64,000 bases of DNA from Deltaproteobacteria bacterium (GTDB lineage Bacteria; Myxococcota_A; Polyangia; HGW-17; SLPX01). Where the stretch lies: NCBI GenBank assembly GCA_021162935.1, contig JAGGXR010000162.1, forward strand, positions 147,159 through 211,158. The letters run 5' to 3'. Positions 8,653 to 55,970 of the stretch are shown piece by piece; position 1 is the stretch's first letter; every line of letters begins with the position of its first letter. Under the pieces are notes generated by a model, which did no database searches, was not told the DNA's origin, and saw only the letters and a list, made by a program, of their open reading frames with translations. The translations under genes were made by a program, and so were the position numbers.

Positions 8653-8838
8653 TTATTCCACCGGCTCGACGCGAACCAGATGCTGCACCTTCCGGATCAT
8701 CCCCCGAATCTCAGGTGTATCCAGAAGCACCTTACTGCGGCCTCTCCTGGTGAGACCAAGCCCCAGAAGCGTCCTGCGCTGTGCCGGTGGCCTTCCGATA
8801 CCCGATCCAACCTGTGTCACTCTCAGCTTGATCGCCAT
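8653..8838 (-). CDS. rpmD: 50S ribosomal protein L30
   Basis: L30 is a small 50S protein. The 61-aa product ([20 protein letters not shown], then [20 protein letters not shown]) has the expected length and motifs. It is tightly placed between rpsE (9 nt) and rplO (25 nt). Confidence 0.96.
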
Positions 8839-8847
8839 GGCGTCCCT

Positions 8848-9351
8848 CTATTCTCCAGTCACTGCGCTCGCAGCGATTCCTCGCCGCTTGGCCGTCTCTT
8901 CGACGCTGCGCAAATGCTTCAAACCATCAACGGTCGCATGCAGGAGGTTGTGTGGATTCCGGCTCCCAAGACATTTCGTCAGGATATCCTGCACCCCGGC
9001 AACTTCCAAGATGGCCCGGACAGCTCCACCGGCAATCACCCCGGTTCCGGGGCGTGCCGGCTTGAGGAGCACCCTCCCGGATCCGAATTCACCCACGATC
9101 TCGTGAGGAATCGTGGATTTCTCCAACGGGATGGTGAACATGTCCCGCCGGGCCTTCTCGAAGCCCTTGCGAATGGCCTCGGGCACCTCGTTCGCCTTGC
9201 CGAGCGCATACCCCACGGTCCCATTCTGGTCACCGACCACGACCAGAGCACTGAAGCTGAACCTTCGACCACCCTTGACCACTTTCGCGACGCGGTTGAT
9301 ATGCACAACGCGATCGACGAATTCGGATCCTTCATCTTGTATCAGAGCCAC
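8848..9351 (-). CDS. rpsE: 30S ribosomal protein S5
   Basis: S5 contributes to decoding accuracy and to mRNA unwinding at the 30S entry. The 167-aa product has the double-stranded RNA-binding-like fold signature ([21 protein letters not shown]) and the later [19 protein letters not shown]. The start is taken as GTG 9351, 8 nt after AAAGGAG. The open frame runs further upstream into rplR but that part is an overlap artefact. Confidence 0.95.
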
Positions 9352-9365
9352 TACCACTGCTCCTT

Positions 9366-9728
9366 TCAGAATCTCAGGCCCGCCTCCCTGGCTCCATCGG
9401 CCAGGGCCGCGACGCGACCGTGATAACCAAACCCATTTCGGTCGAAGACCACCTTCGTGATCCCCGCCTCCAGGCATCTCTTGGCAACCGCCTCACCGAC
9501 CTTCTTCGCCGCTTCTTTCTTTGCAAGCTTGGCGAACTCGGAGGCAGCCGTCTTGCCCAGCGACGAAGCAGCAGCAAGACTCTTGCCGGCCACGTCGTCG
9601 ATCACCTGCGCGTAAATATGCCGGGCGCTTCGGAAGACGGTCAGCCGCGGCCGCTCCGCCGTACCGGCGACTTTCTTTCGGATGCTCCTCTTGCGGCGCA
9701 TCCTGATCTCAACTTTTTTCTTGGCCAT
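9366..9728 (-). CDS. rplR: 50S ribosomal protein L18
   Basis: L18 binds 5S rRNA with L5 and L25. The 120-aa product contains [18 protein letters not shown] and ends [25 protein letters not shown], both family signatures. It is in the standard spc-operon position between rplF and rpsE. Confidence 0.97.
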
Positions 9729-9749
9729 TGCCTCTATCCTCCTGGAACC

Positions 9750-10295
9750 CTACGCCGCTCCGGTCTTACCGACCTTGCGCCGCACATGCTCATCTGTCAG
9801 GCGAATTCCTTTGCCTTTGTACGGCTCGGGGGGCCTCATGGCCCGCACGTTTGCAGCGATCTGCCCGACCTTTTCCTTGTCGATGCCACTGAGGCGGATC
9901 TTCACGCCGCGGTTCTCCACCGCGACCGACACCCCCTCGGGCATGGTGAGCTCCACGGGATGCGAATGCCCGACGCTCAGTGACAGCATCTTGCCGTCCG
10001 TCGTCTCCGCCCGGTACCCAACCCCGACGATATCCAACTCTTTGCTGTAACCCGCCGAGACCCCGGTCACCATGTTCTGGACCAAAGCCCTCACCAGACC
10101 GTGAAAAGCTCGGTTCTCGCGGCTGTCGTCTGGACGCACCGCCTCCACCTTGCCTTCCGACACCTTCAGCTCGATCACCCCGGGAATCGGCCGACTCAAC
10201 GTTCCTTTGGGTCCCTTCACCTCTACGGTACGGCCAGACACCGTGACCGTAACGCCTTTGGGAACCTCAATCGGTAGTTTGCCTATGCGTGACAC
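9750..10295 (-). CDS. rplF: 50S ribosomal protein L6
   Basis: L6 lies near the factor-binding centre and the sarcin-ricin loop. The 181-aa product starts MSRIGKLPIEVPKGVTVTV and ends with the conserved PEPYKGKGIRLTDEHVRRK segment that follows the second alpha/beta repeat. Gene order rpsH-rplF-rplR is canonical. Confidence 0.97.
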   Translation of the reverse strand: MSRIGKLPIEVPKGVTVTVSGRTVEVKGPKGTLSRPIPGVIELKVSEGKVEAVRPDDSRENRAFHGLVRALVQNMVTGVSAGYSKELDIVGVGYRAETTDGKMLSLSVGHSHPVELTMPEGVSVAVENRGVKIRLSGIDKEKVGQIAANVRAMRPPEPYKGKGIRLTDEHVRRKVGKTGAA

Positions 10296-10306
10296 GGCTC
10301 ACCTCA

Positions 10307-10705
10307 TTACCAGACGGCGCAAACGACTTCGCCGCCGACAGACTGCCGCCTGGCTTCTTTGTCCGTCAGCACGCCCCGAGATGTCGTCAGGATGGCCACC
10401 CCAAGTCCGTTACGGACCTTGGGTAACTCATTCTTGCCAACGTAATGACGCTGGCCCGGCTTCGACATTCGCCTCAGCCCCTCGATGGCGCTTCGATGCT
10501 GATCGTCGTATTTAAGCTCGATTTCCAGGATACCCTGCCTGTTGTCTTCCACCAGACGATAATCCCGTATATACCCTTCTTGCTTGAGGATCTCCGCAAT
10601 CCGAAGCTTCAATTTCGAAGCTGGAATGCTGGCTTTCTCTCTCCTGGCCCCAATCGAATTTCGAATCCTGGTCAGGAAATCAGCAATGGGATCGGTCATG
10701 GACAT
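10307..10705 (-). CDS. rpsH: 30S ribosomal protein S8
   Basis: S8 is a primary 16S rRNA binder and, in E. coli, the repressor of the spc operon. The 132-aa product has the [14 protein letters not shown]-terminus and ends [28 protein letters not shown] chose ATG 10705, preceded by a weak GGTGAG. The frame extends upstream without any family similarity. Confidence 0.95.
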
Positions 10706-10768
10706 GGTCTCACCTGCCTGCTCTGCGCGCCCCAATGTGGGGCCATTCTCTCCGGCCGGGCTCCGGCC

Positions 10769-10948
10769 TCACCAGCTCGATTTCGTAACTCCCGGAAGGT
10801 GTCCCTCGAGCGCAAGCTTCCGGAAGCAAATCCGGCACATGTCGAACTTCCTCAAATACCCCCGCGGGCGGCCGCACAAGGGGCAACGATTTCGGTGCCG
10901 CACCTTGAACCTAAGCTTCTTGGGCACCATCTGAGATGTTCTCGCCAC
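10769..10948 (-). CDS. rpsN: 30S ribosomal protein S14, zinc (type Z)
   Basis: S14 helps assemble the 30S head and the A-site side. This 59-aa product begins at GTG 10948 (V-A-R-T-S-Q-M) and keeps the two zinc-binding pairs CPLC and CRIC plus the C-terminal LPGVTKSSW, so it is the short zinc-containing form. An internal ATG six codons later is also possible. It sits between rplE and rpsH. Confidence 0.94.
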
Positions 10949-10975
10949 CTCGATTCCTCCTTGCCACGCTTCGAC

Positions 10976-11629
10976 TTACTTCCTGAAAGGCATGCCCAGA
11001 TGCTTGAGCAGGGCATGTCCTTCCTCGTCCGTCTTCGCCGTGGTCACAATGGTCACGTTCAGGCCCTTGATCTTCTCGATCTTGTCATAATCAATCTCCG
11101 GAAACACGATCTGCTCCCGAAGTCCAAGTGTATAGTTTCCACGTCCATCAAAGGCCTTCGGGGGCAGGCCTTTGAAGTCGCGAACCCGCGGAATCGCCAG
11201 GTTCACCATCCGATCGAAGAACTCGTACATCTTCTCCCGCCGAAGCGTCACGGTGACGCCCACCTTCATTCCTTCGCGCAGCTTGAAACTGGCGATGGAC
11301 CTGCGCGCCTTCGTGACCACCGGCCGCTGGCCGGTGATGGTGCCCATCTCGGCCACAGAGCTTTCGATGAGCTTCGGATTCTGGATGGCCTCCCCCAGGC
11401 CCATATTCACCGTCATCTTGGAGAGCCGTGGCACCTGCATCACGTTCTTGTACCCGAACTCCTTCATCAGGGCAGGGATCACTTCCTCTTTGTACTTGGT
11501 CACCAGACGCGGGGGCTTATCCCTCTTGATGGCCTCATACTGGAGTCCCTTCTTGGCCTTCTTTTTCTTCCCCGAACCCTTGGCTTTCTTCTTGCCTGCG
11601 GGCGCTTTTGTCTCTTTGCTCTTGGCCAT
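10976..11629 (-). CDS. rplE: 50S ribosomal protein L5 with Lys-rich N-terminal extension
   Basis: L5 binds 5S rRNA and contacts P-site tRNA and S13. The product is 217 aa against about 179 aa in most bacteria. The first ~40 residues are an additional Lys/Ala/Gly-rich stretch ([17 protein letters not shown]), after which the normal fold begins ([20 protein letters not shown]). The core motifs [14 protein letters not shown] and FPEIDYDKI are intact. The extension is in frame and has no internal start with a clear ribosome-binding site. Confidence 0.96.
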
Positions 11630-36331: not shown

Positions 36332-38638
36332 ATGCTCGGACGCATCTGCACGACGATCGCAACGATCCTCTTCCTCCTTTCATCCGGTCGAGCCGCCGCC
36401 CAGCAGGCCGAATTGACCTACGATGACGGAACCGCCGCCGGGGCCCTCCAGAACCTGTCCGGCGGCGACATCGAACTCGTGAGGATGACGCCAGCACACC
36501 CAGCCCAGGTCACGGCAATCCACCTGTACTTCGCCATTGCCGAGGGCTGCCAGGCACACGTCAAGATATGGGGAGACAACGGCGGCAACGCTCCGGACCT
36601 GGACCAGATGCTCTTCGAGCAGGACGTGGTCGTGGACGCAACGGGATGGCTCGATCTGCCGGTGGACGGTGTCACCATCGACCCACCCAAAAATTTCTAT
36701 GTCGGTCACGTCCTCGACGACCTCGGCCCGGCCTGTCAACTCGCCTGGGACGGGAGTGGTTCAAATGAAACCCACAGTTTGGCCCGAATCGGTGGCTCCT
36801 GGTTCTATGTCTCCGACGGATCGGATCCACCCAAGTCCATCGATGCCCTGGCTCGGGCGGAAGTGACCTATTTCGACGTGGTGGATCATCCCTGGTTCAC
36901 CGATGTCTCGGACGAAGTGGGCCTGCCCCATGCCATGCGCCGCGTGGCCTGGGCAGACTACAACAACGACGGGGCCCCGGATCTGCTCGTGTCGGGCAGG
37001 CAACTCTTTCGAAACAACGGCGACGGAACCTTCACGGACGTGACCGAAACAGCGGGTATCGGAGACGTCCCAGCAAATGGCGGCGTCTGGGCGGACTACG
37101 ACAACGATGGATTCATCGACTTCTATGCCACGGTCAACAACTACCTACCCAACTGCACCACCAAGGACGACTGCGTGTACTGCACCCTGACCACGGCTCC
37201 GGACGGCTCGCACGCATGTGATCAGTACCAACACGATTTCACATGCAACCAGAGTCGATGCACGCCGCCATCGGGCAAGCAGGCCCACGACGTCCTGTGG
37301 CACAACGAAGGGGACGGAACCTTCTCCGATGCGAGCGAAAGCGCCGGCCAGCCCTACGACTACCTGCCCACCGAAGCGGCCGCCTGGGGGGACTACGACA
37401 ACGACGGATTCGTGGACCTCTACGTGGCAAACTACGAAACACCGGCCACATGGACCGAAGGGGCCCCGGGGCGTGGCACCGCGGACCTGTTATGGCACAA
37501 CGAAGGCGACGGAACCTTTACCGACGTTTCCGAGGGGGCTGGCCTGCGCGTCTTCGGGCAAAATCTCTGTGGTCGGGGGGTGGCCTGGGCGGATTGGAAT
37601 GAAGACGGAAACCTGGATGTCTATGTGGCAAACTACCGATTGAACTTCAACTATCTCTGGAAAAACAGGGGAGACGGCACATTCGAAAATGTATCCGGGG
37701 ACACGAATAGCGCCGGCGTCCTCATCCAGGGACAATATGGCCACTCCATCGGAGCGGACTGGGCGGACATGGACAACGACGGAGACTGGGATCTGTTCGT
37801 GGCCAACCTGGCCCATCCCCGCTTCATCACCTTCTCGGACAAGAGCATGCTCTACGTCAACGGTGGAGCACCTGATTATCACTTCGTCGACCAACGCGCC
37901 GAGGCGGGAATCACCTACAGCGAAACCCACTCGGATCCGGCCTGGGGTGATTTCGACAACGACGGATGGCAGGACCTGTTCATCACGGATGTCTACGTGG
38001 GATACCGCGCATTTCTCTATCACAATGAACAAAGCGCTCCGGACAGACCTTCGTTTAAGGACGACACCTATCCGTCCGGTGTGGTGGTGGACAACGGCTG
38101 GGGCAGCGCCTGGGTGGACTATGATGGTGATGGGGATCTGGATCTGACCGCAACCGGTTTGTGGCGCAACGATGCCCCCAAACCCGGCCACTTCCTCGAG
38201 GTCCACCTGCGCGGCACCCGCTCGAACGCTTCGGCCATCGGTGCGGTCGTGACGGTAAGCGCCGACGAGTTGCACCTCAAACGTCAGGTGGAGGGGGGCC
38301 GGGGCACAGGGAACCAAAATCCACTGACCCTCCATTTCGGGCTGGGGGGACACGACCAGGCCGACGTCCAAATCCGCTGGCCGTCAGGCCTCGTGGAAAT
38401 GCACCATGCGGCGGCCGACCAGCGGGTCTCCTACGTGGAAAACGACGAGGCGGACGACGGGGGGCTCCAAGACGGGGGCTTGGACGGGGCGACCCAGGAT
38501 GCCGGCGACGCCACGGGGCCCACGCACGATGGCTCGGGCTGCTCCTGTCGCAACGAACCCTCTTCGGATGGCCCCCTTGCCATCCTAATGGCCCTGTGGC
38601 TGATGGTGCTGCGGCGTAGGCGCCGACGGTCGGCCTGA
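36332..38638 (+). CDS. Exported FG-GAP/VCBS repeat protein with ASPIC-UnbV domain and MYXO-CTERM-like tail
   Basis: The 768-aa protein has a signal peptide (cleavage after AAAQQ likely), a beta-rich N-terminal domain (to about 190), then at least six FG-GAP/VCBS Ca-binding blades with D-x-D-N-D-G patterns (WADYNNDGAPDL, WADYDNDGFIDF, WGDYDNDGFVDL, WADMDNDGDWDL, WGDFDNDGWQDL, WVDYDGDGDLDL) forming a probable beta-propeller. Residues about 610-690 are an ASPIC/UnbV domain (LEVHLRGTRSNASAIGAVV, then IRWPSGLVE). The end reads GCSCR, a hydrophobic helix and RRRRRR, which fits the MYXO-CTERM surface-sorting tail. GGAGG precedes the ATG. Confidence 0.9.
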   Translation: MLGRICTTIATILFLLSSGRAAAQQAELTYDDGTAAGALQNLSGGDIELVRMTPAHPAQVTAIHLYFAIAEGCQAHVKIWGDNGGNAPDLDQMLFEQDVVVDATGWLDLPVDGVTIDPPKNFYVGHVLDDLGPACQLAWDGSGSNETHSLARIGGSWFYVSDGSDPPKSIDALARAEVTYFDVVDHPWFTDVSDEVGLPHAMRRVAWADYNNDGAPDLLVSGRQLFRNNGDGTFTDVTETAGIGDVPANGGVWADYDNDGFIDFYATVNNYLPNCTTKDDCVYCTLTTAPDGSHACDQYQHDFTCNQSRCTPPSGKQAHDVLWHNEGDGTFSDASESAGQPYDYLPTEAAAWGDYDNDGFVDLYVANYETPATWTEGAPGRGTADLLWHNEGDGTFTDVSEGAGLRVFGQNLCGRGVAWADWNEDGNLDVYVANYRLNFNYLWKNRGDGTFENVSGDTNSAGVLIQGQYGHSIGADWADMDNDGDWDLFVANLAHPRFITFSDKSMLYVNGGAPDYHFVDQRAEAGITYSETHSDPAWGDFDNDGWQDLFITDVYVGYRAFLYHNEQSAPDRPSFKDDTYPSGVVVDNGWGSAWVDYDGDGDLDLTATGLWRNDAPKPGHFLEVHLRGTRSNASAIGAVVTVSADELHLKRQVEGGRGTGNQNPLTLHFGLGGHDQADVQIRWPSGLVEMHHAAADQRVSYVENDEADDGGLQDGGLDGATQDAGDATGPTHDGSGCSCRNEPSSDGPLAILMALWLMVLRRRRRRSA

Positions 38639-41591: not shown

Positions 41592-41630
41592 AAAAAAAAG
41601 AACTCAGTCCGGTTGGAGAACCAACAGACT
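41592..41630 (-). terminator. Intrinsic terminator overlapping the end of the NifX-like gene
   Basis: On the minus strand AGTC-T-GTTGG-(4 nt)-CCAAC-CG-GACT forms a 9-bp stem with a small internal loop. Eight T follow 6 nt after it. It overlaps the last codons and stop of the NifX-like gene and would end the lysine/radical-SAM run. Confidence 0.6.
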
Positions 41631-42005
41631 CCGTTCCTGACCGGCATCGAGGGCGTTCGACAGCTCATCCTTGTGCGCCTCGAGGAGCGCCACGGCCTCG
41701 GCAACGGTGTCTACCCTGGTCCGGACACAAACGAACCGATGAAGCATTCTCTTGACATTCGGACCAAACCGCTTGCCCACAATCCCGTCCAGGTCCTTGA
41801 GCAACGAACCCATGGCCGCCGCCTTTTTCGGGTCACCGTGGGCCAGGGTCTCATCCTCTTCGATCGCGACATTTCGACGATCCTCCTCAAACACCACCTC
41901 TTCATCCGTCACACGATATACGCGATAGCGTTCGGCGCTCCCGACGTGATCATTATTAAGAAGGGTCCCGTCGTTGGTCCCAATGGCGAAACGCAGTGGT
42001 GTCAT
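41604..42005 (-). CDS. NifX/NifB-type iron-molybdenum cluster-binding protein
   Basis: The 133-aa protein matches the dinitrogenase cofactor-binding family (the NifX, NafY and C-terminal NifB fold): FAIGTNDGTLLNNDHVGSAERYRVYRV and later LDGIVGKRFGPNVKRML. These proteins bind Fe-S or Fe-Mo cluster precursors, and many homologues lie outside nitrogen-fixation clusters with unknown roles. The N-terminal HVGSAERY matches the usual HFG(R/K)A region, giving a conserved His. AAGGAG lies 6 nt before ATG 42005. It lies 90 nt after a tandem radical-SAM gene on the same strand. Confidence 0.8.
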   Translation of the reverse strand: MTPLRFAIGTNDGTLLNNDHVGSAERYRVYRVTDEEVVFEEDRRNVAIEEDETLAHGDPKKAAAMGSLLKDLDGIVGKRFGPNVKRMLHRFVCVRTRVDTVAEAVALLEAHKDELSNALDAGQERSLLVLQPD

Positions 42006-42095
42006 ACTCGCTCCTTCGATTGTGATCCCGTTTCCGCAACAGCTCTTGCCAAGCCCACCCAACGCGCCACCCAACCCCTCACCCAACATCAAGCG

Positions 42096-43895
42096 TCAGG
42101 ATACCGCAACAAGGCCTTCAACGCCATAAATTGCCAAATATTCAGGATACAAACCAGCACAAAACGCAGCCAACCTGCAGGTTGGTGCCAAGGGACAGCA
42201 GACCCGACGCTTGAGCAGCGCCCCTCGCTCCTCCAAAATCGCCACGGGCTCGGGCAGAGCGAGGCCCACGTCACTGTCTCGCACGGAAATATGCAAGAAC
42301 CGATCAAGGAGACAAGGCGGCACTTCGGCAAGCAACAGGTGGGCCAGTCGCCGCCTCGTGGCCTCGTCTCGATGAGCCACTTGCCGTCCCCATTCCTCGA
42401 CCGCCTCTGGCAGGAAAAACGCAATCCGTTCATATCGCTCCAAGGCCCAACTCGCCGGTGCGGCCACAGAAACATGGGAAAATGTTCCCGCTTGGTTGGC
42501 CCGCTCCATGATCTTCAACAAAAAGGCAGCATTGTCCCGCACCAAGACCGTATGGAACACAATCTTGTTCAGATGTGCCTCGTGCAGATGACCAACCCCA
42601 ACCATGGTCTCGTCGAAAGCGCCGACCCGACCGGCCACCGCATCGTGAACCGCGGCGTTCGGCCCCAACAAAGGAATATCCACCCCAGCCAACCCAAGTC
42701 GAACGATGCCATCCGCAAAGGCTGCATCTGCAAAACGCACGCCGGACGTGTCCATCCAGACCGGCCTTCCGCTCCATCTCGCAGCAGCAGCCACAATCAC
42801 CGAAATATCGGGGTGCTCGGCCGGCTCGATCGCCACGAACCGCACCTGTGGACGATCGACAACAGCGTGGCCACCCGAACCTCCCACTGCAACGAACTCC
42901 TCTCGCAGCCCGGCGAGCACGTCGAACAGGTCGTCGACCGACCATAGACACTCGTTGTCTTCGTGGATCACGGCCGTGGTGCAAAACGAGCAGACGTTCG
43001 AGCAGGTCGTCCGAAGCACGATTCTGAGTTCACCGTCCCTGTACTCGCGATGGAGCGTCGATCGATCGGATCGCTGCACCATCGCATGCGGAGGCCTCGA
43101 ACCGGCAGCAGGAAATCGCCCTGGCGCAGGGAGGCCGTCTTTGGACAGGAGCACTGGTTGCTCGCTGCCCACGCAGCCTTGCCTCAGGGCACAACCCACA
43201 CACAAAGGATCCAAAAGCCGGGGGGTGACGGGCTCTGCACCCGATACGAAGAGATCGTCCAGCCTCGAGCGCCCGGGCCAGGGAAGCAGTCCAATCAAAT
43301 CGCAGGCAGCCAACCCAGCCACCCGACCCGCCAGCCCGGCGCGCCAAGCGCGCCGGACCGCCCCGGCCACGCTCGGCCCGACCAAATCCGCCGACAGTCC
43401 GATGGCGTTTGGACCGAGCCACAAAAACCGCACCTCGTCACAGCCCAGGTCGGCCGCCAGGTCCACCAAGTGCCCAAGGTCATCCAGATTCTCCACAGTC
43501 ACCAAAAGACGGAGGCTGACCGGAACGCCCGCCGCCACCAGGTTTTCGATTCCTGCAATGGTCTGCGCATAGCTCCCCGGCACCCTGGTATGATCATCGT
43601 GCATCGCCGCCTTGGAGCCGTGCACCGAAACCACGACCCTGGCCAAGGCAAAACCAACGTCATCCACGAAGGACCGGTAGGCAAAGCGACGACCGTTCGT
43701 GTGGAGTTCCACCCGACCCAAAGAACGAAGCAGGTCCATGAATCCAGGCTGAAGCGTTGGCTCCCGACCACGGATCACGACCGGCGCATTCCCCGGCAAG
43801 GAAGCCAGCGAGGATGCCCCCCTAAGCCGGCCCGTACAGACGACACAGTTGTTGTTGCAGTCTCCGTCGAAATGATAGACGAAGGCGTCAGCCAT
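42096..43895 (-). CDS. Tandem radical-SAM domain protein
   Basis: The 599-aa protein carries two radical-SAM CxxxCxxC motifs: C13-N-N-N-C17-V-V-C20 and C298-S-N-V-C302-S-F-C305. Between them is a CVGCALRQGC cluster (Cys232, 235, 241), like the auxiliary Fe-S SPASM-type region. The C-terminus has four more Cys (RRVCCPLAPTCRLAAFC). Residues about 14-190 and 295-470 could form two partial TIM barrels. The reaction is unknown. ATG 43895 has GGTGAG at 9 nt; ATG 43943 is the alternative. Its neighbours are lysine degradation and a NifX-type protein. Confidence 0.8.
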   Translation of the reverse strand: MADAFVYHFDGDCNNNCVVCTGRLRGASSLASLPGNAPVVIRGREPTLQPGFMDLLRSLGRVELHTNGRRFAYRSFVDDVGFALARVVVSVHGSKAAMHDDHTRVPGSYAQTIAGIENLVAAGVPVSLRLLVTVENLDDLGHLVDLAADLGCDEVRFLWLGPNAIGLSADLVGPSVAGAVRRAWRAGLAGRVAGLAACDLIGLLPWPGRSRLDDLFVSGAEPVTPRLLDPLCVGCALRQGCVGSEQPVLLSKDGLPAPGRFPAAGSRPPHAMVQRSDRSTLHREYRDGELRIVLRTTCSNVCSFCTTAVIHEDNECLWSVDDLFDVLAGLREEFVAVGGSGGHAVVDRPQVRFVAIEPAEHPDISVIVAAAARWSGRPVWMDTSGVRFADAAFADGIVRLGLAGVDIPLLGPNAAVHDAVAGRVGAFDETMVGVGHLHEAHLNKIVFHTVLVRDNAAFLLKIMERANQAGTFSHVSVAAPASWALERYERIAFFLPEAVEEWGRQVAHRDEATRRRLAHLLLAEVPPCLLDRFLHISVRDSDVGLALPEPVAILEERGALLKRRVCCPLAPTCRLAAFCAGLYPEYLAIYGVEGLVAVS

Positions 43896-43955
43896 CAGCG
43901 CCGACTCACCGGGAATCCGCGGTGGAACACCGCGGCAGCTCATACCACCCCATCA

Positions 43956-45275
43956 TCAGTCCAGTCCTGTTTCGTGACAGGAAATCCCCATCTCTTCGAG
44001 TTCCGCCAGGATGGGTTCGTAAATCGCTTGTTCCACGGGAATCTTCACCCCGGTTAGCGGAAGCTTGCCCTCCAAGATGAGTTTCGCCCCGACTGCAGCG
44101 GGAAGGGTGACCGTTCTGGCCATGGCTGAATGACCATTGGGAATCCCTTCGTCCACCATGGTGGAGGTGATGGTCTGCTTGCGCTGTCCATAGTCCGCCA
44201 CGAACTGATGGTGGAGCACGATGAGATCCCGCTCTCCTGGCGCATATTGGAGCTTCTCCTGGAGCCGGTGCGACAACACGTCCAGCAAGGTAGGCTCGTC
44301 GGGCACAGGTTCATCACTGAGCAGGCCGAGCCACTTCCAACGATCCAGGACGTCACCCTTGGAGTCCAAACCCAGATGCCGCGCCAGATCCTCTTCGAGG
44401 GTCTCCTCTTTGGCATTGGGTACCAGGCTCGTAACCAGGGCTCGATAGGTCTTGCCCGCCAGATCGTTCCTCTTTTCCAGGTTGAGGACCCCCAGGTCCA
44501 CGAGCGCCTTCCAACAATCGCACCAACCTTTGTAGCGCAGTGTGCCCCGCAGCATCGTCTGCACGTCATCGAGACCATAGATTCCAATGTAGCTCATGCT
44601 GTCCCGATTGGGATAGGCTTCGAAGGTGCCCGCGCCGGGGACTTCCACGTACCAGTGGTTGGCGAACAACTCGGGTCCGGGAATATTCACCTCCTTACCA
44701 TCCTGGAGATACCGGGCCGAATTCGTCCCGGCCACGACCACGCCACGAGGGCTCCAAGAGAACTTGTATCCCCATGGATTCGTATTCGCATCCGCCGCAG
44801 GAAGCCCGCCGCAATACGACTTGAAGCTCACCACCTTGCCGCCAGCGGCCTCCACCCGATGAATGACCCGCATGGCGGACATGTGGTCGATCCCCGGGTC
44901 CAACCCGAGTTCGTTGAGCAACAGCACCCCCGCCTCTTTGGCCTGGGCGTCGAGGGACTTCATTTCAGCGCTCACGTACGACGCCGTCACAAGCGGCTTG
45001 TGGTGGGCCAGGCAGGCCCGAGCCACGTTCACGTGGTAGGTTGCGGGCAGCAGGCTCATGGCCAAATCCGTCTCCGCGACGAGTTCCTCCAAGAGATTGT
45101 CGTCAGCCACGTTGAAGGCCTGGGCCCGACCGTCTTCGACCCCTTCGACGAGGGCCTCGCCCTTTGCGACCGTCCTGCTCGCCACGGTCACGGCAAATCC
45201 AGCCTTGGACAAATACTCGACGGCGGGCCTCGTCACGAGACCGGCACCCAAAATAAGAATCTTTTTCTTCGCCAT
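43956..45275 (-). CDS. Saccharopine dehydrogenase (glutamate-forming type)
   Basis: The 439-aa protein is of the saccharopine reductase/dehydrogenase family: Rossmann start KKILILGAGLVTRPAVEYL, LLNELGLDPGIDHMSAM, and the substrate-domain region SFKSYCGGLPAADANTNPWGYKFSWSP. In the saccharopine route it oxidises saccharopine to glutamate and 2-aminoadipate semialdehyde. GGAGG lies 6 nt before ATG 45275. The upstream partner gene is lysine-ketoglutarate reductase, 142 nt away, in the same order as the fused animal AASS enzyme. Confidence 0.9.
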   Translation of the reverse strand: MAKKKILILGAGLVTRPAVEYLSKAGFAVTVASRTVAKGEALVEGVEDGRAQAFNVADDNLLEELVAETDLAMSLLPATYHVNVARACLAHHKPLVTASYVSAEMKSLDAQAKEAGVLLLNELGLDPGIDHMSAMRVIHRVEAAGGKVVSFKSYCGGLPAADANTNPWGYKFSWSPRGVVVAGTNSARYLQDGKEVNIPGPELFANHWYVEVPGAGTFEAYPNRDSMSYIGIYGLDDVQTMLRGTLRYKGWCDCWKALVDLGVLNLEKRNDLAGKTYRALVTSLVPNAKEETLEEDLARHLGLDSKGDVLDRWKWLGLLSDEPVPDEPTLLDVLSHRLQEKLQYAPGERDLIVLHHQFVADYGQRKQTITSTMVDEGIPNGHSAMARTVTLPAAVGAKLILEGKLPLTGVKIPVEQAIYEPILAELEEMGISCHETGLD

Positions 45276-45417
45276 GATGTCCTCCAAAATGCTTTTCGAA
45301 TCCATCGTCTCCGTTCGTGTCCCTTCGAGCCACCAAAGGCTCGCCACGCTCAGGTTTCCAACAATCCGTGTTTCTCACTCGATGAGCAGCACCCTTGCCC
45401 CACGCCACCCTTTGCTC

Positions 45418-46719
45418 TCACAGATACTTCTCCAGATACCGAAACGATTCTGTCAGGCCCCCTCGATGCACGATGACCGCCCGCTCCAACTCAGGGGGCA
45501 ATCCAGTCTGTGCCAGAGGCTTTCTCATATCTGCAAACGCCAAACCGGGCGCGAGGGCCCGCAAGGCCCCACTGAAGGCTTGTGACGACTCCAGCGGCAA
45601 CTCCGTGGGCAGGTTGTCGACCGCCAGGACGGCAATCCCTTTGCCCTCGAACCCACTGACTGTTTGTGCCGTGGCCGGGTCGTACAGGAAGACGGGATCT
45701 TGCGAAGACGTGCAGCGCACCGTTGCTTCCACGGCGCCAGCCACGTCGCAGGAAATGTCTCCAATGAGGCGCAGCTTCGGCAGCGACGTTCCAGCGAACA
45801 GGTCCGTCAGCTTCTCCCTGGTCACCAACCTGGGATATCGCTCCTCCCAATAGATGCAATTCATGAGCACCGAAAGTTGATCGACATATTGATCGAATCG
45901 TCCCTGATAATGCTCGGGGTGCTGATAGTAATCCTGAAGGTCGAAGCGGTGGCCGGCAAGGGGCTCTACCAGATGCTCTTCCTTGAACACCACTTTGTAC
46001 ACTCGATCGGCCGAAGGCGGCAGCCCTGCCAGGAGGTCCTGTGGTGTCACCTCGACGGACGGCAACAAATCCCAAATCTCCTGAGCCCCCTTCGAAACGT
46101 GCCCGTAGCCCGAAAATCCGCAAACCAACGGCCGAAGGGAGGATGGGACCTTACCCGCCGCGAGTTCACGTCCCACGGCCGACACCGCCTCCTTGGCTCC
46201 CGCCAGGTTGGCAAAGGCATGTGCTGGACGAAGATGGGAAAAGGGCGTGACCGCACCCTCTTGCACGTTCAGGCGCTGCCCCAACGCCCAAAGGCCGTCG
46301 ATCATGCCGGCCAGTCCGGCATAGCGCCCGAAAAAGATGAGGCGTCGGCCCTGCTCGTCCGTGATCTTTTCGTAGTCGATGAGGTCACAGCCCAACTCCA
46401 GCAGGCGTCGCAGCATCCCCATGTTGTAACTCTGGCCCTTGATGGTGTGTGAAAAGTACACGTACGTCCGCTCCGGCTGGAGCAGCTTCGTCGGGATCTC
46501 CTTCACCCCGAACACCACCGGACAGATGCTGATGTCCTCGACCACCGACGCGCCCACATCGTCGTACTCGTGGTCCTGGAACACGCGGTGCGGTGAGGGC
46601 TGCACGGCAAACTCCAGGCCGTGCTCGGCCATGAGCCCCGCCACGTCCTGTGGCACCAGGGCAACCCGTCGCTCCCAAATACTCTTATCCTCTCTTCTGA
46701 TACCCAACATAGACCGCAC
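45418..46719 (-). CDS. Lysine-ketoglutarate reductase (saccharopine-forming)
   Basis: The 433-aa product resembles the LKR half of animal AASS and the alanine dehydrogenase/PNT fold: IRREDKSIWERRVALVP, then PERTYVYFSHTIKGQSYNM and DYEKITDEQGRRLIFFGRYAGLAGMID. It condenses lysine with 2-oxoglutarate to saccharopine with NADPH. The chosen start is GTG 46719, 8 nt after GGAGG; ATG 46710 is the alternative but lies 17 nt away. A weak TTGACC-17-TACGGC lies upstream (46767-46795). It heads the lysine run. Confidence 0.88.
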   Translation of the reverse strand: MRSMLGIRREDKSIWERRVALVPQDVAGLMAEHGLEFAVQPSPHRVFQDHEYDDVGASVVEDISICPVVFGVKEIPTKLLQPERTYVYFSHTIKGQSYNMGMLRRLLELGCDLIDYEKITDEQGRRLIFFGRYAGLAGMIDGLWALGQRLNVQEGAVTPFSHLRPAHAFANLAGAKEAVSAVGRELAAGKVPSSLRPLVCGFSGYGHVSKGAQEIWDLLPSVEVTPQDLLAGLPPSADRVYKVVFKEEHLVEPLAGHRFDLQDYYQHPEHYQGRFDQYVDQLSVLMNCIYWEERYPRLVTREKLTDLFAGTSLPKLRLIGDISCDVAGAVEATVRCTSSQDPVFLYDPATAQTVSGFEGKGIAVLAVDNLPTELPLESSQAFSGALRALAPGLAFADMRKPLAQTGLPPELERAVIVHRGGLTESFRYLEKYL

Positions 46720-54242: not shown

Positions 54243-55970
54243 CTATGGGGTCATGTGCACGTAGACCTCGACCCACAGCACATGCGAGTTGTCCCAGGCA
54301 CTCGCACCCACCTTTGCATTCACGTAGCACTTCTCCGTACCACAGTACATGTAGGGCTCAACGTTCCCCACGTCGTTGTTGTAGAGGTCTTCGTAGCCGC
54401 CGACCGTTTGGTCGGGCAACAGGTCGAACTGAAACGAGTCCCAATTATAGAGGTACATCTCGGCTCCATCTCCGAACAAGGCATCGTCATAGCCATAGAC
54501 CTCCACCCGAATCGAATCCACACAAGACGAATGCTCCTTGGCAAACTCGACGAAAATCTCGGCTGAGCCACTGGAAAGACCCGGGCTGAGCAGCACCCAT
54601 GAGTCTCCTTCCTCCGAGTCGGGATCCTCGTAGGAATCGTACAGCATGAGTTCGTCGCCCCATCGCCAACCAATGCTCACCCAACGATCCCGACAGGGAT
54701 CTGTGCTGTTGGCGGGACAGTCCGGATCGTCGCCAACGGGGCACCATGTGTCGCAATGTCCATCATCGGAACAAGCATCCTCGTTCAACTCGCAATCAGG
54801 GTCGCACGTACAGGTGTCCGAGCTGTTCTGGGCATCGGCTTCGCAATACTCATTGTAGTCGCAACCGCACGAGCAGTCCGGGTCCGACCCCGACGGGCAC
54901 CAGGTGTCACAATGGGAATCCGCGGTGCAGGCGGACCCATTGCTGCAGTCGTCGTCGCATGAACAGGCCTGGCTGGACCCTGGAGCCGACGCCTCACACA
55001 CACCAGGGAAGAAATCACAATTGCAAGGCTCGATACAGGCGCCACTTTGACAGGCCTGGCCCTGGTCACACGAAATGACCGGGCCCCAAGTGAAACAGGT
55101 ACTCGTGTCATTATTGACACTGCAAACTTGATACCCGTCTCCCGACGCCGTGCATTGGCGTTCGCCTTCGCTGTCGCATTCATTTTGGCAGGTCGCGCCG
55201 CACTGGCCCATGGAGCATGTCTCGCCGTCGGCGCAGGCAATCGTCGATCCCCACTCCAGACAGGAATCCGCGTCGAAATCACCACATTCTTGATACCCAC
55301 CAACGCCATCACAGCGTTTCGCCCCAGTCACACACTCATTGGTGCATTCCGCCGAACACCTGCCGTTCGAGCAGGTCTCGCCGCTTTGACAGGCCGTGAT
55401 GGGACCCCAATCCATGCAATTATCCGAATTGTGGTCAGCGCAGACCTGAAATCCATCCCCGGCGCACTGTCGCGAATGCTCAGCGCACTCGTCGTGGCAG
55501 GAGGACGAACACTTGCCCGCCGAACAGGTTTCCCCAGTGTTGCACGGCGTGGTCTCGCTCCAGTGGTAAAAGCCATCCTGTCCCAACTCGCAGCTCTGTG
55601 TCCCCTCGGTGCTCGTGGCTGGATCGCAACGCACGGCGAGCTTGACGCAATCGTCCACACCACCAGCCTGACACTTGCCGTCGGTGCATTTCTCGCCCGG
55701 GTCACAGGGGGTCACGGGCCCCCACTCGAGACAGGAGTCGGCATCGTAGTTCCCACAGACCTGGAACCCGCCGGTGACGCACTGCACATCTCCTTCGTTG
55801 CAGCGATTCTCGCACTGACTCGCGTCCGGTCTCGGCTTCGCATCGGGGAACACGTACGCATCGCGGTCCACCACGTTATTTTGATTTCCCCCGGATGAAT
55901 TCCCGTCCGGACCGCAGGCCACCAGGCCAAGCGCCAGAACGGCCATCATTGCATTGCCATGCCGCTTCAT
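54243..55970 (-). CDS. Cys-rich repeat lipoprotein with C-terminal beta domain
   Basis: The 575-aa protein has a lipoprotein signal ending LVAC (Cys19) and an Asn/Gly-rich linker. Residues about 53-312 hold five ~50-aa repeats of the form CxxxC...GFQVCGxxDxDSCLEWGPxxxCxxGExCxxGxC, each with 8 or more Cys. Two further repeats (about 337-368 and 387-418) have CSCDDDCSNGSACTADSHC-type order. Residues about 425-575 are a beta-rich domain without recognised family. Disulfide-stabilised surface protein is likely. It is divergent from glnA (106 nt). Confidence 0.8.
   Translation of the reverse strand: MKRHGNAMMAVLALGLVACGPDGNSSGGNQNNVVDRDAYVFPDAKPRPDASQCENRCNEGDVQCVTGGFQVCGNYDADSCLEWGPVTPCDPGEKCTDGKCQAGGVDDCVKLAVRCDPATSTEGTQSCELGQDGFYHWSETTPCNTGETCSAGKCSSSCHDECAEHSRQCAGDGFQVCADHNSDNCMDWGPITACQSGETCSNGRCSAECTNECVTGAKRCDGVGGYQECGDFDADSCLEWGSTIACADGETCSMGQCGATCQNECDSEGERQCTASGDGYQVCSVNNDTSTCFTWGPVISCDQGQACQSGACIEPCNCDFFPGVCEASAPGSSQACSCDDDCSNGSACTADSHCDTWCPSGSDPDCSCGCDYNEYCEADAQNSSDTCTCDPDCELNEDACSDDGHCDTWCPVGDDPDCPANSTDPCRDRWVSIGWRWGDELMLYDSYEDPDSEEGDSWVLLSPGLSSGSAEIFVEFAKEHSSCVDSIRVEVYGYDDALFGDGAEMYLYNWDSFQFDLLPDQTVGGYEDLYNNDVGNVEPYMYCGTEKCYVNAKVGASAWDNSHVLWVEVYVHMTP
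54717..55814 (-). repeat. Coding repeats of the Cys-rich lipoprotein
   Basis: Five units of about 150 bp and two shorter units encode the Cys modules. The first, third and fourth protein units are most alike (for example DADSCLEWG in units 1 and 4). They are diverged at DNA level, so expansion is not recent. Confidence 0.7.

Follow-up and report, generated by a model that had tools for sequence, protein, structure and literature searches.

A fused tandem radical-SAM protein with HxsC-like units and its NifX-like neighbour in a genome of the class Polyangia

Introduction

The described systems closest to the locus considered here are the Hxs maturases HxsC and HxsC4, NifX/NafY, NifB and FO synthase. 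The Hxs (His-Xaa-Ser) systems are represented in the literature searched by a bioinformatic definition only, and no description of their chemistry or product was found. FO synthase (FbiC) carries two radical-SAM domains in one chain (PMC11917521), and in the nitrogenase field NifX ligates NifB-co through His35 (PMC13128457). No description of a tandem radical-SAM gene paired with a NifX gene, or of the radical-SAM gene arrays noted below, was found in the literature searched.

The window, a stretch of 64,000 nucleotides analysed as a whole, lies on contig C4 of a deltaproteobacterial genome (5.1 Mb in 168 contigs, 97 % complete). It encodes a tandem radical-SAM protein followed by a NifX-like protein, which an earlier note on the sequence had compared with the two modules fused in NifB, here split and doubled. 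The analysis points, with somewhat better than even confidence, to a maturase formed by fusion of two HxsC-type units and belonging to a scattered Hxs-like system (HxsB/HxsC/HxsD) which is widespread in the class, with the NifX-like gene as a lineage-specific neighbour.

Architecture of the tandem radical-SAM protein

The tandem gene (42096-43895, minus strand) encodes a HxsC/HxsC4-like protein of 599 amino acids, recognised from its open reading frame, Pfam and NCBIfam matches and a tree; an alternative in-frame ATG at 43943 would add sixteen residues. Two CxxxCxxC motifs are present, CNNNCVVC in unit 1 (residues 13-20; 43836-43859, minus strand) and CSNVCSFC in unit 2 (residues 298-305; 42981-43004, minus strand), and two such motifs occurred by chance in 2/20,000 shuffles of the protein. 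Radical_SAM is the sole Pfam match, over the cut-off in two stretches (50 bits; cut-off 29.5), such that the two motifs in one protein and its description as doubled are both borne out. No SPASM domain was matched in the Pfam search; unit 1 nonetheless ends in CX2CX5C.

This ending forms part of a CX2CX5CxG motif (CVGCALRQGCVG; residues 232-243; 43167-43202, minus strand) identified in the motif survey, while unit 2 closes with a CX5CX5CxG motif (CPLAPTCRLAAFCAG; residues 567-581; 42153-42197, minus strand) recognised in both the survey and the alignment, with the C-terminal cysteines at positions 566, 567, 573 and 579. One or the other variant occurs in 67/96 motif-bearing proteins from the window and related loci, a collection which includes a few proteins that are not radical-SAM enzymes, and the terminal three-cysteine motif is a hallmark of this radical-SAM family. 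Because such motifs close each unit, the middle cysteine-rich region and the last cysteines repeat one element and form no extra domain. The extra cysteine-rich region and four terminal cysteines claimed earlier are thus both present, the former being the terminal motif of unit 1. This middle motif is absent from the orthologue described below, which shares the CX5CX5CxG ending of unit 2 with the window protein and a stand-alone relative (L105:5113-5997).

The usual GGEP SAM-binding motif is replaced by GREP in unit 1 (43758-43769, minus strand) and, as seen in the sequence and alignment, by AIEP in unit 2 (42822-42833, minus strand), with AVEP in the orthologue. The departure from GGE affects both units, and the catalysis of either or both might differ as a result. 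A degenerate paralogue, with one or both units having lost radical chemistry and serving another radical-SAM enzyme as its scaffold or regulator, would also fit the CNNNCVVC motif, whose third cysteine is not preceded by the customary aromatic residue, the long branches and the existence of two known copies. However, the six radical-SAM cysteines, the Glu-Pro following the GG position and the terminal cysteine motif of unit 2 are all kept across 36 % identity to the orthologue, and related genomes have further radical-SAM units with GREP; degeneration is considered unlikely. The predicted structure of the tandem protein is poor (pLDDT 61) and served only to confirm the radical-SAM folds. In the fold search, NifB is one among many radical-SAM matches, and the best solved-structure matches include BlsE.

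Family assignment and origin of the fusion

The NCBIfam models that both halves match best are HxsC and HxsC4, with scores far below the curated cut-offs. The tandem protein scores 104.1 bits over two stretches against the HxsC equivalog TIGR03977 (E 6e-30; cut-off 267.9) and 74.1 bits against HxsC4 NF038332 (cut-off 500), with its orthologue reaching 121.2 bits against the latter (5e-35; cut-off 500). In a tree of 99 radical-SAM units, with SH-aLRT values from a quick search and several long branches, the N-terminal half groups with other divergent N-terminal units (93), and the C-terminal half with that of the orthologue (92) and with the stand-alone L105:5113-5997 of genome G194 (95), a protein of 294 amino acids. 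The halves belong to different subfamilies, and the tandem protein is therefore a fusion of two radical-SAM units. Internal duplication of one unit was rejected on the placement of the halves in different clades and their weak mutual similarity (blastp E 4e-5). Relatives with one radical-SAM unit are common, including the stand-alone C-half relative; such relatives, in the terms of the earlier note, point to an ordinary role for the large protein. A defence function was also discarded, as neither the tandem nor the NifX-like protein has a PADLOC match.

Among 318 genomes of the class, the full tandem orthologue occurs in the window genome and G049 (a JAFDER01 MAG) only, the latter encoding the sole true orthologue found. 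A single-sequence scan of the genome contigs gave no match, and an alignment-based scan recovered the contig of the orthologue itself, plus a single-domain radical-SAM protein from an archaeon that is unrelated. In G049 the tandem gene is followed, on one strand, by genes for an HxsD-like protein, a 991-aa double radical-SAM protein, an HxsC-like protein and a further radical-SAM protein. The HxsD-like gene, which is over its curated cut-off, lies 77 nt after the tandem gene, and the gaps in the locus are about 80 nt or less.

Other tandem radical-SAM proteins of about 600 amino acids are encoded in the class (L102:7385-9196, L103:6268-8106 and L104:3249-4949). They have the same layout as the window protein, with CX2CX5CxG closing each unit, but their halves fall in other clades and both units carry GGEP; a separate fusion is the reading of their sequences on both counts. 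A tandem radical-SAM gene at G240:C503:2553-4085 (L104) is interrupted near its 5' end by a single in-frame TGA. Furthermore, a 1069-aa open reading frame (L060:7489-10698) has three CxxxCxxC motifs and apparently three radical-SAM units. In L045/L046 (G028:C72), L047/L048 (G036) and L049 (G075), radical-SAM genes form conserved arrays, with about ten members in a few tens of kilobases; B12-type/HxsC4 fusions are encoded there, as is a protein of 1466 amino acids bearing two radical-SAM motifs.

Association with HxsB and HxsD

Contig C161 of the window genome encodes HxsD, an HxsD-like protein and HxsB in a row, with HxsB well over its equivalog cut-off (532.6 bits; cut-off 370). The tandem gene itself adjoins neither HxsB nor HxsD, both being on C161. 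The row recurs in several genomes of the class, and is a tight three-gene set in L095:4767-7014 and also in L130, L131, L133, L134, L050 and L056. G194 carries such a set within about 13 kb of sequence that also holds the stand-alone C-half relative and a further tandem radical-SAM gene.

Across 96 relatives, HxsB is found in 26/26 genomes with at least five matches to the window protein and in 2/70 of the others. Both states of this co-occurrence with the radical-SAM expansion are found inside five families, where the two vary together. The agreement within families is a better argument for the HxsB link than the Fisher test (p 2e-21), since the latter ignores kinship. Taken with the HxsC/HxsC4 matches and the HxsD-like gene beside the orthologue, this association supports the RiPP-like half of the earlier proposal of an unknown metallocofactor or a RiPP-like pathway.

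No match to HxsA (TIGR03979), the known Hxs target family with His-Xaa-Ser repeats, was obtained in the window genome. Proteins very rich in cysteine (up to 106 Cys), many of them resembling lipoproteins, are encoded near several radical-SAM genes (L054:5157-6980 and 8764-11532; L052:5986-7395; L043:4960-7290; window 54243-55970). Such lipoproteins were set aside as substrates: they are often near radical-SAM genes, yet common in the phylum.

Upstream neighbours and transcription

Two dehydrogenase genes, assigned by Pfam, immediately precede the tandem gene on its strand, encoding a saccharopine-dehydrogenase-like protein (43956-45305, minus strand) and an AlaDH/PNT-domain protein resembling lysine-ketoglutarate reductase (45418-46710, minus strand). 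Elsewhere in the window, 36332-38638 encodes a protein of 768 amino acids that combines FG-GAP repeats with a UnbV_ASPIC domain. The consensus scan found no promoter-like site at the locus and terminator-like sites are near chance frequency; a transcript shared by the dehydrogenase pair, the tandem gene and the NifX-like gene is thus plausible as far as sequence signals can indicate.

These neighbours could suit an enzyme acting, as FO synthase does, on a small molecule, perhaps a lysine-derived compound. The window protein has the architecture of FbiC (PMC11917521), and BlsE, among its best solved-structure matches, acts on a small molecule. However, G005 and G002, which belong to the same order, retain the two dehydrogenase genes with neither a radical-SAM nor a NifX gene, the orthologue sits instead among HxsD-like and radical-SAM genes, and the CofG and CofH models are not among the best 25 of 33 NCBIfam matches. 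Small-molecule modification is accordingly held to be decidedly unlikely, and membership of the tandem gene in a lysine-type dehydrogenase operon was rejected, given the occurrence of the dehydrogenase pair elsewhere without a radical-SAM gene.

The NifX-like neighbour

The next gene on the strand of the tandem gene (41604-42005, minus strand) begins exactly 90 nt downstream, with AAGGAG before its ATG, and encodes a NifX-like (Nitro_FeMo-Co) protein of 133 amino acids, recognised by Pfam, predicted fold and alignment. Its hmmscan score against PF02579 is 25.9 bits (cut-off 26.3), and over the cut-off when counted with the neighbouring frame; against the NifX equivalog TIGR02663 it scores 20.9 bits (cut-off 112). 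The predicted model (pLDDT 84) has NifX of the NifEN-NifX complex (9ian) and the NafY core (1p90) as its best Foldseek matches. Position and predicted fold together uphold the earlier identification of a same-strand NifX-like gene. His20 (codon 41946-41948, minus strand) aligns with the NifB-co ligand His35 of NifX, and cluster binding is for this reason a credible property of the protein.

The NifX-like protein has four scattered relatives (about 30-34 % identity), with a radical-SAM gene beside 0/4, and was matched in two other genomes among 95 relatives and in 2/378 drawn from the phylum. No NifX gene lies beside the orthologue or any other tandem examined in the class. The conserved radical-SAM/NifX co-occurrence in related genomes that the earlier note would take as support for a new cofactor pathway was thus not seen; the gene looks like a lineage-specific neighbour, paired with such a radical-SAM enzyme in the window genome alone. 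NifX-like domains also occur in other settings. In L063:1213-1857 and L099 the domain is fused to a ferredoxin and adjoins two MinD/NBP35-type ATPases with ferredoxin-like cysteine motifs, while in the window's own genome an Mrp/NBP35-type ATPase is fused to a NifX-like domain (L097:5964-7307).

The 97 %-complete genome has no match to the nitrogenase NifDK family (PF00148), and nowhere does it exceed the NifB cut-off (TIGR01290; 343.65 bits), the only match, at 19.4 bits, being to the NifX-like region of a different gene. No nif genes were found in these profile searches, and a nearby nif cluster was rejected as a candidate. A split, doubled NifB analogue, with the tandem protein as assembler of a complex Fe-S or metal cluster that its NifX-like neighbour passes to another enzyme, would account for two genes 90 nt apart, for the NifX/NafY fold with a His that ligates NifB-co in NifX (PMC13128457), and for a genome with no nitrogenase to serve. 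Nevertheless, the radical-SAM units match HxsC rather than NifB by sequence, NifB does not stand out in the fold search, and neither the orthologue and every other tandem examined nor the four NifX-like relatives repeat the pairing. The earlier reading as split NifB is not supported, and such an analogue is judged very improbable. Also very improbable is a radical-SAM maturase outside nitrogenase that either receives a complex Fe-S cluster from a NifX-type chaperone or hands one over to it, so that nif-like trafficking would serve a modification or cofactor pathway beyond nitrogen fixation. A new metallocofactor pathway is possible but lacks support beyond the adjacency in one genome and the conserved His.

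Proposed function and significance

As a fused HxsC-type maturase, the window protein would comprise two HxsC-type units joined end to end, each with its own terminal cysteine motif. Each unit is expected to bind a [4Fe-4S] cluster through CxxxCxxC and to cleave SAM to a 5'-deoxyadenosyl radical, with the terminal three-cysteine motif probably holding an auxiliary cluster or metal. The small HxsD and HxsD-like proteins may act as recognition or docking partners, and the two active sites could introduce two successive radical modifications on a peptide or protein substrate. The NifX-like protein, if of any help, may carry an Fe-S cluster. The sub-cut-off Hxs scores, the lack of an adjacent HxsB or HxsD, the failure to find HxsA in the window genome, the single true orthologue, the altered GGE motifs and the poor tandem model all count against this explanation.

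In one class, HxsB is tied to a radical-SAM repertoire that is large and mostly dispersed and includes double-domain fusions of independent origin. This raises the testable question of what is modified where a single genome encodes at least ten HxsC-like enzymes, and provides a limited set of enzymes, with their small HxsD-type partners, for reconstitution. The NifX neighbour is of lesser importance and looks like a local arrangement.

Comparison with known systems

The radical-SAM and NifX-like modules are neighbours here and are fused in some NifB proteins; unlike in NifB, the window units are doubled, not NifB-like by sequence and not fused to NifX. The NifX-like protein resembles NifX and NafY (PF02579) in its fold and cluster-binding His, but falls far below the NifX cut-off, adjoins an HxsC-type enzyme and has a host devoid of nitrogenase and NifB. 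FbiC (CofG-CofH) similarly has two radical-SAM domains per polypeptide, whereas its domains appear to belong to other radical-SAM families, its gene context differs, and the terminal three-cysteine motif on both units is a feature of the window protein. From HxsC and HxsC4 the window protein differs in having two units per chain, altered GGE motifs and sub-cut-off scores, in a genome with no HxsA match and with the tandem gene unlinked to HxsB on the chromosome. Nonetheless, these are the best NCBIfam models of both halves, the HxsB and HxsD families are present in the same genome, and an HxsD-like gene adjoins the orthologue.
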